From: Desulfobacterales bacterium | GTDB lineage: Bacteria > Desulfobacterota > Desulfobacteria > Desulfobacterales > JAHEIW01 | Direction of reading: 5' to 3' | DNA: 64,000 nucleotides | Assembly (NCBI GenBank): GCA_030066985.1 | Contig: JASJAN010000004.1 | Span: 124,001-188,000 of the forward strand | In this document: positions 1-55,593 of the stretch, piece by piece | Layout: each line of letters starts with the position of its first letter | Numbering within the stretch: position 1 is the first letter of the stretch | Program-made: the position numbers and the translations under genes | The notes under the pieces: model-generated | Told to the model about the DNA's origin: nothing | Database searches by the model: none | Seen by the model: only the letters and a program-made list of their open reading frames with translations

Positions 1-398
1 TCTTCTCCAGTGTGGGCGTCCAGTTCAAACCATTGATCATCTTTAGGGATATAATGATGACCCGCCAGGGTATATTCAGCGCTCTGTAATTGAAATCGCT
101 GGGGAAACAATACACTGAGCTCACCCTGTGAGCTGCGGTAGATGAGATAGACAAAACTGTTCTGATTGACACTCAAAAAAAATTTGATCTGGTCGCCAGT
201 TTTTAAAACCGTGTCTTTTGTAACAGCTTCAAATTTGGATCCATTGGCTTTTTTCAGTGCGCCGAACGCCCACTGAAATTGCAAATTTGCTTCCTGTGGT
301 GCCGAAGTCTCTTGGGCATATGAAACCGAACGACTTTCTATATACAACACACAAACAAGGGTGGCCAAGACGATACTGATAACGTGAAGCGTTCTCAT
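1..398 (-). CDS. DUF4384-type secreted protein, 3' end cut by window edge
   Basis: This open frame of 132 complete codons runs off the left edge without a stop, so only the N-terminal part is visible. It opens with ATG at 398 and a hydrophobic stretch of about 20 residues that looks like a signal peptide, followed by an Ala/Gln/Glu-rich linker. The region after residue 70 (a GDQIKFFLSVNQ segment, then VYLIYRSSQGELSVLFP and a YIPKDDQWFELD segment) matches what I know of DUF4384, a beta-rich domain found in secreted or envelope proteins, often beside caspase-like or kinase domains. The function is unknown. No neighbour on the same strand lies close enough to suggest an operon. Confidence 0.7.
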   Translation of the reverse strand, partial: MRTLHVISIVLATLVCVLYIESRSVSYAQETSAPQEANLQFQWAFGALKKANGSKFEAVTKDTVLKTGDQIKFFLSVNQNSFVYLIYRSSQGELSVLFPQRFQLQSAEYTLAGHHYIPKDDQWFELDAHTGE

Positions 399-52478: not shown

Positions 52479-53381
52479 TCAGGACTTCTGAAATTCAGCG
52501 GCGATGCAGACGGTATTGAAATGAATGTCTACGGTGTCTTTGATGTTGGGGGCATAGCCGCCGGCCATGGTAACAGCTACCGGCAGTCCGGCGTCCCGGC
52601 AATACCGCAACACCAGTCGATCCCGTTCTGCCAGACCCTCTTTGCTCACATCCAGGCGCCCGAAACGGTCTTCGGTAAAAGGATCTGCCCCGGCCAGGTA
52701 GATGACCGCATCGGCTTTGGCCTCTTTTAAGGACGCCCTTATGCCGTTGTCCAAAGCATCCAGATACACCCGATCATCAGTCCCATCATCCAGGGCAATA
52801 TCCAGGTCACTTTTTTCTTTGCGGAAGGGAAAATTGTTTTTTCCATGGATCGAAAAGGTAAAAACATTCGGGTCCTTCTGCAGCAGCGCTGCAGTGCCGT
52901 TACCCTGGTGTACATCGCAATCTAGAATGAGCACACGCTTGATATGGGTATCCGCCTGAAGCGCTCTCACCGCAATGGCGCTATCATTGAACACACAATA
53001 CCCCTGGCCCCGGTCTTTGAAGGCATGGTGGGTCCCGCCGCCCAGATGAACTGCAACACCATCATCAAGGGCTGCAAAACAAGCGTCAACAGTGGCCCCG
53101 GCCGATCGCCTGGCGCGCTCAACGAGCTCTTGCGACCAGGGCAGCCCGATACGCCGGGTCTCTTTGGCGGTCAACTGGCCTTGCTGCAACCGCTGCAGGT
53201 ATTCCGGATCGTGAGAGCGGCAGATTTCAATATCGGTTGCCGCGTGGGGGACACATAATTGCTGGGGAGAGAATCGGTTGGAATTTTCAATTCGTTTACG
53301 CAGGAGGGCATACTTGCCGATCGGAAAAGTATGATTCTCCGCCAGGGGAATGGTAAATGAATCCGTATAAAAAATTTTCAA
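52479..53381 (-). CDS. Histone deacetylase-superfamily deacetylase
   Basis: This 300-residue arginase-fold amidohydrolase has the class II-like bacterial HDAC pattern. It shows a GGGTHHA His pair (118-119), zinc ligands Asp156 and His158 in DCDVHQGNG and Asp233 in AGADPF, and a GGY near the end for the catalytic region. Bacterial members act on acetylated small molecules (acetoin-utilisation AcuC, acetylpolyamines) or proteins. It begins 15 nt after the candidate selenoprotein gene on the same strand and is likely co-transcribed. Confidence 0.87.
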   Translation of the reverse strand: MKIFYTDSFTIPLAENHTFPIGKYALLRKRIENSNRFSPQQLCVPHAATDIEICRSHDPEYLQRLQQGQLTAKETRRIGLPWSQELVERARRSAGATVDACFAALDDGVAVHLGGGTHHAFKDRGQGYCVFNDSAIAVRALQADTHIKRVLILDCDVHQGNGTAALLQKDPNVFTFSIHGKNNFPFRKEKSDLDIALDDGTDDRVYLDALDNGIRASLKEAKADAVIYLAGADPFTEDRFGRLDVSKEGLAERDRLVLRYCRDAGLPVAVTMAGGYAPNIKDTVDIHFNTVCIAAEFQKS

Positions 53382-53396
53382 ACGTTGAATCCAATC

Positions 53397-53717
53397 CTAT
53401 TCTTCATCGGGCGGCAGGATGCCACGATATGTACCGGCGTTTTGCAGGGCGGATTTCATCTCATCGATGCTGATACGTTGCGGATCGTAAGAGACTGTAT
53501 TGGTTTCCTTAAACCACAGCTTGTTTTGCTGAATACCGCTTTCCACCTGTTTGACACCATCGAGCCCATCCAGGGCTGCTTTGCCGACATCGTATCAGCT
53601 CACGTGGAATACGACTTGCGCATCCGCCGCGGGCTGCTCGTCAGAGGCAACTGTCATCGCTGCAAACAAAAGCATCAAAATTAACACATTCAAAGGGAAT
53701 CTTATGAATTTTTTCAT
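53397..53717 (-). CDS. Candidate selenoprotein: HMA-like domain with in-frame TGA (Sec41)
   Basis: This 106-residue frame runs from ATG 53717 (AAGGTGG 8 nt upstream) to TAG 53397, with one internal TGA at codon 41 (53597-53595). Residues 1-24 form a signal/anchor helix. Reading TGA as selenocysteine gives VVFHVSU then YDVGKAALDGLDGVKQVE and a regular C-terminal half (NTVSYDPQRISIDEMKSALQ). This fits the beta-alpha-beta heavy-metal-associated (MerP/CopZ) fold with Sec where the metal Cys lies. The RNA after TGA can form AGCCC-(UGGAU)-GGGCU, loop 22 nt past the UGA with G in loop position 2, as bacterial SECIS requires. A plain pseudogene remains possible. Confidence 0.7.
53563..53577 (-). promoter_or_regulatory. 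Putative bacterial SECIS hairpin
   Basis: On the minus strand AGCCC (53577-53573) pairs with GGGCT (53567-53563) over a 5-nt loop TGGAT. The loop begins 22 nt after the TGA at 53595, within the usual 16-37 nt window. The stem is short (5 bp). Confidence 0.5.
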
Positions 53718-53792: not shown

Positions 53793-53945
53793 GAAGCTGC
53801 CTTAAAAATAGCAGCTCACGTTCAAGGGCAAGGCGAAAGCCGATTCAAAAGTGGAGTCCGCCTCCGGCGGATTAGTATTCGAGCATTTTGAATTGGTTTT
53901 TAACGCAGCCCTTGGGCGTGAGATGCATTTTTAAGGCAGCTTCTA
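53793..53945. repeat. Inverted repeat element G2
   Basis: GAAGCTGCCTTAAAAATAGC (53793-) pairs with TGCATTTTTAAGGCAGCTTC (to 53943). Inner pairs (TCACGTTCAAGGGC with GCCCTTGGGCGTGA, and GATTCAAAA with TTTTGAATT) flank the palindrome TCCGCCTCCGGCGGA (53857-53871). On the minus strand it starts on the TAG stop of the ABC ATPase gene, as G1 does at GlcDE. Confidence 0.9.
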
Positions 53946-55184
53946 GATGTTGCACTGAAATTGCGCAATAGGCGCCTTCTTAAATTCCGCAAACTCCATA
54001 ATAGAAGCCAGCTCAACATTATCACCGCCGCGGGCCATTCCAGCAGTAACCAGAAAGTCAAAGCAGCGCATCTCAGGGTTAACCTCCCTGGCTGCCCTTT
54101 CGATGCTTAGCAATCCGTTTTGTTTAAAATCCCGCGTAAAGTTAGCCAGGATTCCTTCGGCTTCATCCAGATCGGAAAACGGCAAAACAGTGCTGAATTG
54201 ATTGACACGGCGGCGGGCAGAAAACCCGCCGACCAGACCAAAATGTTTATTGATGTATTCGCCCATTTTGCGGATGCCGACCTGGGTGGCGGTGTGCCCC
54301 AGGTTATCGATCATGCGATCCAGATCCTCCAGGGTAAAGACAACAACAATGTAATGTCTATGCCCGTTATTGCGGGCCAGATCGGTTTGATAGCGCACCT
54401 TAAATTGGCGCCTGGAATGCATACCGGTTAATTCATCCTGCAAATTTTCGATGCTGTCGATGATCTCATCGTAAAAGGGATGCTGGAATTCCTCAAAGGC
54501 TTCAGGGGTGCCCTGAAAAACTATTTTTTTGCCATAAAGGGCCAATATGTGATCGGAAATGAAAAATACATCCGGAATATCGTGACTGATTAAAACCGCC
54601 GTAAAACCATATTTTCTTTTGTATTCGGCGATCATACCCAGGATTGCATTCCGGCGAATGGGGTCCTGGCCGGTGGTCAATTCGTCGAACAAAACGATTT
54701 TCGGATCGGTTACCATAGCCCGGGCCAGCGCGGTTCGTTTTTGCATCCCGCCCGAGAGCTCGGATGGGTATCTGTGAGCCACTTCAATGAGCTCGGTTTG
54801 CTCCAGACGGGCCATTATCCGGTCATGAATTTGCTTTTTGGTGAGTCGGTTGAATTTTCTCAACGGCATGGCCACATTTTCATAAACCGTTTTAGAGTCA
54901 AAAAGCGCGTTGCTCTGAAACATGTAGCTGCACTGCGATAAATAGTCATTCCATTTTTTACGCGACATTTTTTCGATGGGCTGGCCTCGAAAAAGCACAC
55001 TACCCTCTTCCGGTTTCAGCAGACCGATGATGTGCTTGAGTAGGACACTTTTACCCTCGCCGCTTTTCCCGATGATGGTGGTCACATCACCTTCAGATAT
55101 GGTTAAGTTGACGCCATCCAGGATGGTGCGCTGGCCAAATCGTTTGGTAACATTTTTAAATTCTATTATAGGAGGGCTCATCAT
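53943..55184 (-). CDS. MlaF-like ABC ATPase fused to degenerate GGDEF domain
   Basis: This 413-residue protein begins with a complete ABC ATPase of the MlaF/Ttg2A lipid-transport type: Walker A GKSGEGKS 39-46, signature LSGGM 143-147, Walker B LFDE 165-168, H-loop SHD near 200. A GGDEF-fold domain (about 249-353) is joined directly, recognisable by DELTGMHSRRQF and the DxLDRMIDNLGH helix. The GGDEF signature itself is replaced by RVNQF (326-330), so cyclase activity is not expected. Phospholipid-transport ATPase controlled by a pseudo-GGDEF is the inference. No mlaE or mlaD is adjacent. ATG 55184 is preferred to 55208. Confidence 0.85.
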   Translation of the reverse strand: MMSPPIIEFKNVTKRFGQRTILDGVNLTISEGDVTTIIGKSGEGKSVLLKHIIGLLKPEEGSVLFRGQPIEKMSRKKWNDYLSQCSYMFQSNALFDSKTVYENVAMPLRKFNRLTKKQIHDRIMARLEQTELIEVAHRYPSELSGGMQKRTALARAMVTDPKIVLFDELTTGQDPIRRNAILGMIAEYKRKYGFTAVLISHDIPDVFFISDHILALYGKKIVFQGTPEAFEEFQHPFYDEIIDSIENLQDELTGMHSRRQFKVRYQTDLARNNGHRHYIVVVFTLEDLDRMIDNLGHTATQVGIRKMGEYINKHFGLVGGFSARRRVNQFSTVLPFSDLDEAEGILANFTRDFKQNGLLSIERAAREVNPEMRCFDFLVTAGMARGGDNVELASIMEFAEFKKAPIAQFQCNI

Positions 55185-55593
55185 GGCACCCTGTATACAG
55201 CCGATCAATTATCAACGTATGCCATCTGATCACATATCACCATCGTTTGTGTCTAACACAGTGCAACTTCTGTCGGCTCTAGGGCAACACTTCGGGCGGG
55301 ACTTAACGATCACATGGGTGGGGTATCGCTTCATGAGGGCAGGCGACATTCCCCAAAATGGTTACCAACGTCCCGGTAATGAGAAGGGCATCCCAGGGAT
55401 TACACAATAATTTCTTTGCTGAATAATTGACAAACAGGTCAAAGGACCTGGAACGGTTTAATACCAATACCCTTTATAATATCCTAATCATAAAATGGAA
55501 TCATGCAAGGCGGGAAATGAGGATAAAGCGGTAAATAGCAGGCGCTGGCAATAAAAAGCAAATAGTTATCTATACCCATGCGGTGGTGACCGT
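55185..55593. other. Intergenic stretch, nothing recognised
   Basis: 409 bp between two minus-strand genes, containing no supported gene, RNA or word-repeat. It should hold the promoter of the ABC-GGDEF gene. Confidence 0.5.

Follow-up and report, generated by a model that had tools for sequence, protein, structure and literature searches.

A very probable selenoprotein gene of a Desulfobacterales bacterium, encoding a predicted ferredoxin-like domain with a single selenocysteine

Selenoprotein finders lean on Cys-bearing homologues. The described proteins that come closest to the locus presented here are metal-binding (HMA) domains of the MerP, CopZ and CopA type and methionine sulfoxide reductases of the MsrA type. 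Among the latter, CoMsrA of Clostridium oremlandii has one selenocysteine (Sec) and no Cys, is reduced by glutaredoxin and counts His137 and Tyr140 among its active-site residues (PMC4333827). Of the NCBIfam (seleno)protein families, NF041115 (UxxU metal-binding) and NF041383 (VPGUxxT thioredoxin-like, type 2) are relevant, the second being OS_HP5 in a 2026 review (PMC13188914) whose table of 119 families holds no entry that can be equated with the family described below. Table 2 of the 2008 GOS survey has a row for a selenoprotein named "Mercuric transport protein MerP" that counts two sequences and 0 Cys homologues (PMC2398784), and 34 putative selenoproteins have been reported for a marine deltaproteobacterium (PMC8318568).

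The window, a stretch of 64,000 nucleotides (G000:C4:124001-188000), belongs to a 5.07-Mb genome that is 97.8% complete. On its minus strand, a first-pass annotation had proposed a frame with its own signal segment, interrupted only by TGA at codon 41 and closed by TAG, and translation of that strand agrees with it:

53397..53717, minus strand: predicted selenoprotein CDS of 106 aa with a TAG end and one internal TGA read as Sec (homologues, codon census)
53595..53597, minus strand: TGA codon 41, predicted selenocysteine (conserved in distinct strong homologues)
53646..53717, minus strand: signal-like hydrophobic N-terminal segment, about residues 1-24

The proposed signal segment corresponds to a hydrophobic stretch with a predicted helix at residues 6-23, and hydrophobic leaders are also present in homologues. 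The ribosome site, previously called strong, does exist, but the sequence AAGGTGGA upstream of the ATG is a partial match rather than a textbook one. A promoter and terminator scan found none, and an Rfam scan of the window gave 0 matches. A lone frame split by TGA is weak evidence, because the window holds 13 frames in which an in-frame TGA is preceded by an ATG 35 or more codons away and followed by at least 60 open codons. The commonness of such frames also speaks for a reading in which UGA acts as a true stop, with a pseudogene remnant or a separate ORF downstream of it. What raises this frame above chance is its conservation, with TGA present in 16 of 18 match rows and in all 53 distinct strong homologues that reach across the codon.

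These rows come from a search of 96 genomes, our own included, with TGA read as Cys and E <= 0.01, in which 15 genomes (again counting our own) matched the window protein. The two rows lacking TGA (L022 and L023, E 0.006 and 0.008) are weak and were judged unrelated. A close homologue was found in two of the three other genomes of the same genus, and none was found by this search in the third, which is 79% complete. For the codon census, loci were rescored with TGA masked as X, so that TGA was neutral to the score, and matches above 40 bits were called strong; all 53 distinct strong matches that cover the column carry TGA there and none carries a Cys codon. Outside this count stand one strong fragment that ends short of the column, 6 weak matches that do not cover it and 14 weak matches bearing Cys codons. 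The latter are 13 MsrA sequences, with the motif FAGGCFW, and one HMA domain, in which the second Cys of GMSCANC falls at the Sec column. The first-pass annotation had suggested looking for homologues with Cys at this position; these exist, but only as distant relatives that belong to other families, and the close family is therefore Sec-only among the matches examined. A 52-row alignment, from which L065 was left out for want of a start call, was chosen by a motif that itself contains TGA, and for this reason the TGA count is taken as 53 and not 52. Across its rows, F37, V39, L49, G54, E71, V75, Y77 and L91 are invariant, as is U41, which was selected for, and Cys occurs in 0 of the 52 family cores.

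Just 3' of the UGA, the coding sequence contains a putative SECIS element:

53561..53579, minus strand: putative SECIS hairpin inside the CDS (constant CTG loop codon, paired 6-bp stem, more pair types than shuffles)
53563..53577, minus strand: hairpin core, stem 53563-53567 / 53573-53577, loop UGGAU at 53568-53572

The hairpin had been described beforehand as a 5-bp stem with the loop UGGAU, and it is exactly so, the closing U-U of the window sequence leaving this shorter stem and larger loop. A G lies in the apical loop, the stem begins 17 nt after the UGA, and 22 nt separate UGA and loop. The hairpin is common to the family genes, where it is built around GCCCUGGAxGGGC downstream of the UGA. 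Its loop codon, Leu49, is CTG in 52/52 genes compared to 149/429 (35%) of the other Leu codons of the same genes, and Ala48 is GCC in 44/47 compared to 187/482, with binomial probabilities of 1e-24 and 3e-15, respectively, figures that ignore relatedness. Counted from the first base of UGA, a 6-bp stem whose 3-nt loop is centred 27 nt downstream shows 94% pairing, and the next best stem centre within the 60-nt stretch reaches 59%. When eight stem pairs were compared with shuffles, 84% of cells paired against 80.5 +/- 0.8 (0/1000 reaching the observed value), extra pair types numbered 15 against 9.6 +/- 1.2 (0/1000), and cells changed on both sides numbered 17 against 7.9 +/- 2.3 (7/1000). Controls with slid partners paired in 31-59% of cells and gave 4-9 extra types; the slide of -1 had 23 cells changed on both sides, more than the 17 of the true stem, though with far less pairing. 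The mean hairpin energy was -10.1 kcal/mol, as opposed to -5.0 +/- 0.3 kcal/mol under synonymous randomisation. Taken at the level of sequence, these comparisons support the view that the hairpin behaves as a SECIS.

The genes for Sec synthesis and insertion, for which a search in the same genome had been advised, were all found: tRNA-Sec (selC; 75.2 bits, cut-off 47, anticodon TCA), selA (614 bits, cut-off 268), selB (376, cut-off 242) and selD (356, cut-off 125), the last itself with one in-frame TGA. Across genomes, tRNA-Sec exceeds its cut-off in 31 of the 42 with a strong family match and in 19 of 20 chosen genomes without the family, a comparison by which co-occurrence says little; in the 11 remaining strong-match genomes (68-93% complete) no tRNA-Sec over the cut-off was found, also when it was searched for alone. 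UGA still terminates in these bacteria, because TGA is the final stop of 15 of the 52 family genes, including the paralogue L026 of our own genome. This, together with the presence of tRNA-Sec, rules out UGA as a general sense codon. An assembly error was ruled out by the same TGA in many separately assembled genomes, and a chance frame or pseudogene by the codon census and the conservation of the SECIS. The true-stop reading has against it the same census, a conserved protein downstream of the TGA, the conserved hairpin and a full Sec machinery, and we regard it as highly improbable. From sequence comparison, it is nearly certain that 53397-53717 is a selenoprotein gene with UGA codon 41 decoded as Sec. 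The original proposal, a selenoprotein of HMA-like fold that gene finders would truncate, is thus upheld by codon and SECIS conservation, by the Sec machinery and by the fold predicted below; annotation stops such genes at residue 40.

A profile scan of genome contigs, with a peptide pattern that excluded the Sec site, gave 41 loci from 48 stretches, mostly in bins of Desulfobacterales or Deltaproteobacteria, including the Olavius-associated Delta 1, 3 and 4 bacteria, with further loci in SAR324, Nitrospiraceae and Thermodesulfovibrionia bins. A single-sequence scan of genome contigs returned 35 pattern matches and no relative, and a plasmid search returned 2 weak matches, both annotated as P-type ATPases. 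Among 389 genomes of the class, at least 80 have a match at E <= 0.001, at least 42 of them a strong one (E <= 1.4e-9); two of the 42 (G330 and G385) have only fragments that miss the TGA site, and the remaining class-wide matches are weak, many lying in frames of 360-420 residues. Dozens of Desulfobacterota-type genomes carry the family, which also occurs in SAR324 and Nitrospirota-type bins. Our own genome has a second copy with its own TGA, counted among the 16 rows above (C17:48597-48833, within L135, G000:C17:43500-54500). This copy is divergent, with the motif FxVAUFDVSEEVLDGLKG, as seen also in L025/L066, and a similar-looking protein of 190 aa lies upstream of the divergent copy in two genomes (L066_1 and L135 4312-4884).

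The product is small; behind the leader comes a domain of about 75 residues that has no Cys and carries its one Sec where helix 1 begins:

53400..53621, minus strand: predicted ferredoxin-like (HMA/MsrA-like) domain, residues 33-106 (AlphaFold2, with matches to MerP 1osd and MsrA 4lwj)

AlphaFold2, run on the 52-row alignment, gave a pLDDT of 84.9 overall and higher values in the core, where means of ten-residue blocks are 93-98 for residues 31-100 except for 85 at 61-70. After the leader helix, the predicted elements are E33-39, H42-49, E55-64, E69-77, H84-94 and E97-101. With Foldseek, nothing scored below E 0.001, and among the top rows MerP/HMA and MsrA were mixed with other ferredoxin-like folds. 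With VIA-align, the predicted model matched MerP (1osd) best, together with HMA domains of Cu-ATPases, at Z 10.6 for 1osd (rmsd 1.6, 66 residues aligned). Whole-sequence profile comparison with PDB sequences was led by HMA domains (E 6e-4, compared to 0.48 for MsrA), and one-to-one hhalign against 24 local HMA segments gave E 8e-10 over 45 columns. NF041115 matches 15 of the 16 members scanned at E <= 0.01. All these matches favour the main rival to the function that we prefer, namely a periplasmic soft-metal carrier or scavenger of the MerP/CopZ kind, in which a lone selenolate, perhaps in a dimer, would capture Hg, Cu or Ag. Such a carrier is made less probable by the lack of CxxC and of any other Cys, by the omission of the metal loop from the hhalign match and by the loop before Sec, which we take to be shorter than that of MerP. 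The TGA had been placed at a metal-binding Cys; it does fall at the second Cys position of CxxC, but the domain has no other Cys, and the metal site is putative at best given this lack and a spacing equal to that of MsrA.

This spacing is measured from strand 1 to Sec and is marked by a Phe at -4 relative to the nucleophile, as it is in FAGGC. The Sec-type MsrA 4lwj is a near fold match (Z 8.6, residues 31..105 aligned to 6..99), and U41 would sit at or near residue 16 of 4lwj, the catalytic position, if the model alignment is ungapped there. One-to-one profile comparison with MsrA gave E 5e-8 over 54 columns, the catalytic Cys among them, and the HMM alignment to the 13 MsrA sequences sets Sec on that Cys, the aligned structure ranges agreeing. 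The Phe, the near fold match and this alignment speak for a minimal methionine sulfoxide reductase, or a domain derived from MsrA, whose Sec would itself reduce Met-O in exported proteins, a sub-case whose odds overlap with those of the wider redox reading. Here GCFW is absent, the family having FxVxUYDV-type sequence where MsrA has FAGGCFW, the C-terminal half that holds His137 and Tyr140 in CoMsrA is missing by length, and PF01625 (MsrA) has no match in the window protein and matches 3 of 16 members, the best at E 0.0053; we consider it unlikely, in spite of the adjacent MsrA/B genes described below. The invariant Glu71 was rejected as proof of MsrA kinship, as HMA domains can have a Glu equally far from Y[DN]P. 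On the model and the profile matches, the mature domain is probably of an HMA/MsrA-type ferredoxin-like kind that is filed in neither family, nearest to the HMA domains of MerP and CopA and next to the MsrA core.

Two same-strand neighbours flank the gene, as had been claimed, and HMM matches agree with their assignment:

52479..53381, minus strand: histone-deacetylase-family protein, downstream, 15 bp after the selenoprotein stop (PF00850, 3e-57)
53943..55208, minus strand: MlaF-like ABC ATPase with a weak GGDEF-like C-terminus, upstream (PF00005, 2.5e-33; PF00990, 3e-8)

The ATPase matches the MlaF model at 2e-61, below the cut-off of that model, and its fusion to a GGDEF-like domain is an unusual pairing. 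An operon with these neighbours had been considered possible. Their order is kept in the same genus, the deacetylase gene following the homologue in both same-genus genomes that have one (L010/L011 frames; L027/L028 contigs) and the ATPase gene preceding it in the single one where the contig extends far enough, but elsewhere the neighbours are often Msr or two-component genes. A dispersed palindromic repeat separates the ATPase and selenoprotein genes. The element (53793-53943) has 17-nt perfect inverted ends 117 nt apart, and the 161-base stretch that was compared with the genome gives, with 40 of 161 candidates scored, at least 45 match rows at no fewer than about 40 places in its own genome, with copies about 76-95% identical; by sequence it looks like a dispersed repeat of the MITE/REP type.

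The wider neighbourhood was compared over 41 loci (344,103 bases; some loci share a genome), with neighbours clustered by BLAST linkage and only cluster representatives named by HMM. A gene of the MsrA/MsrB cluster lies on the same strand within 400 bp at 16 of 41 loci, and a molybdopterin oxidoreductase (PF00174) is adjacent on the same strand at 6; one or the other is found at 21 loci, with both at one locus. Genes of the two-component cluster occur within 5 kb at 23 loci, and at least one of these three kinds of neighbour is present at 28. If genomes carry one to three MsrA genes each, as the matches recorded here suggest, a stretch of 344 kb should contain well under one. Most of the MsrA/B linkage comes from a single group of the tree that has weak support, the molybdopterin genes are scattered over the tree, and the window gene adjoins neither an MsrA nor a two-component gene. 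The molybdopterin neighbour was tried as MsrP-like and rejected; SorA/SoxC models fit better and no NCBIfam cut-off was reached. Between the kinase and selenoprotein genes of two loci lies a gene for a protein of 222-225 aa whose start is signal-like (L030_6, L030:4165-4839; L039_2, L039:2076-2741); of these proteins, the one that was checked has no Pfam match.

For the metal carrier, the Msr and two-component neighbours would make up a regulon of metal or oxidative envelope stress. Against it, five neighbour clusters are found in at least 4 loci, of which the four named by HMM include no metal transporter, the fifth being judged by eye. In view of the HMA-like fold, and despite the loop and the missing thiols, we hold a metal role as a tentative alternative. 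We favour a periplasmic redox role, since the lone Sec without a resolving thiol resembles CoMsrA and the neighbours include Msr and sensor genes. In the explanation that we favour, UGA codon 41 is very probably decoded by tRNA-Sec and SelB under the direction of the conserved hairpin, the product would be exported behind its signal-like leader, and the periplasmic selenolate would serve as a one-selenium redox centre in oxidative repair of the envelope. The Sec protein may itself reduce a sulfoxide or oxidant; alternatively, it may pass electrons to or from a neighbouring methionine sulfoxide reductase or molybdenum oxidoreductase. A partner thiol would then resolve the selenenic acid or Se-S intermediate, as it does in one-Sec MsrA. 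Taken as a whole, this explanation seems to us reasonably probable, the redox-repair role being in itself an evenly balanced call and any particular redox partner a less certain one. A further-reaching version, for now speculative, would have a Sec-obligate family with no Cys version act as a dedicated periplasmic selenol partner of methionine-sulfoxide or molybdenum-dependent repair enzymes under envelope two-component control; if true, it would be the equivalent of thioredoxin/DsbD, built on a ferredoxin fold, for the repair of proteins outside the cytoplasm. In either form, the redox reading, like the metal reading, offers a testable link between selenium and the ways in which anaerobes repair oxidative damage or defend themselves against metals outside the cytoplasm.

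The claim that the family is uncatalogued holds for Pfam, for NCBIfam 20.0 and for the table of the 2026 review, with a caveat for the "MerP" row of 2008. The window protein reaches no cut-off in Pfam or NCBIfam 20.0, and 15 other members, scanned by E-value, gave weak matches only. The family would add an entry to the catalogue, and its distinct strong homologues all have TGA wherever they extend over the site. The 2008 row is MerP-like by name and could be compared by its description only, the table giving no motif; it could be the same family as the window protein. With NF041115, the family shares a related small domain of the metal-binding type with Sec in a loop, but NF041115 has two Sec as UxxU where the window protein has one, and the latter, at 24.7 bits, stays below the cut-off of 95. 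NF041383 matches both the window family and MsrA proteins with its second half; it differs in being longer (287 positions) and in having its Sec motif, VPGU, in another part, and the window protein scores 26.5 bits against a cut-off of 275, over profile positions 138-205 only. Five frames of 273-327 residues, each with one in-frame TGA (L126, L128, L131, L133 and L134), match the second half of this model as well; since a motif scan found no F.GG[CU][FY]W in them, they are not ordinary MsrA, and by their sequence they may be another selenoprotein family. The thioredoxin half of NF041383 has a match in our own genome too, at G000:C73:3655-4080 (L123), where positions 1-141 score 207 bits, below the cut-off of 275, and the match contains a TAA.

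The HMA domains of MerP, CopZ and CopA share with the family the beta-alpha-beta-beta-alpha-beta ferredoxin-like domain, and Sec aligns with the second Cys of their CxxC; the family differs in having Sec only, with neither thiol nor, in the alignment, the GMxCxxC metal loop. The window protein has no Pfam HMA match and scores 12.9 bits against 92.55 for MerP and 20.7 against 91 for CopZ in NCBIfam. Compared to MsrA, it is about half as long, lacks GCFW and the helical domain and stays below the MsrA cut-offs. With CoMsrA, of which 4lwj is the U16C form, the window family has in common the core fold, the nucleophile column and its spacing, and a single Sec without Cys.
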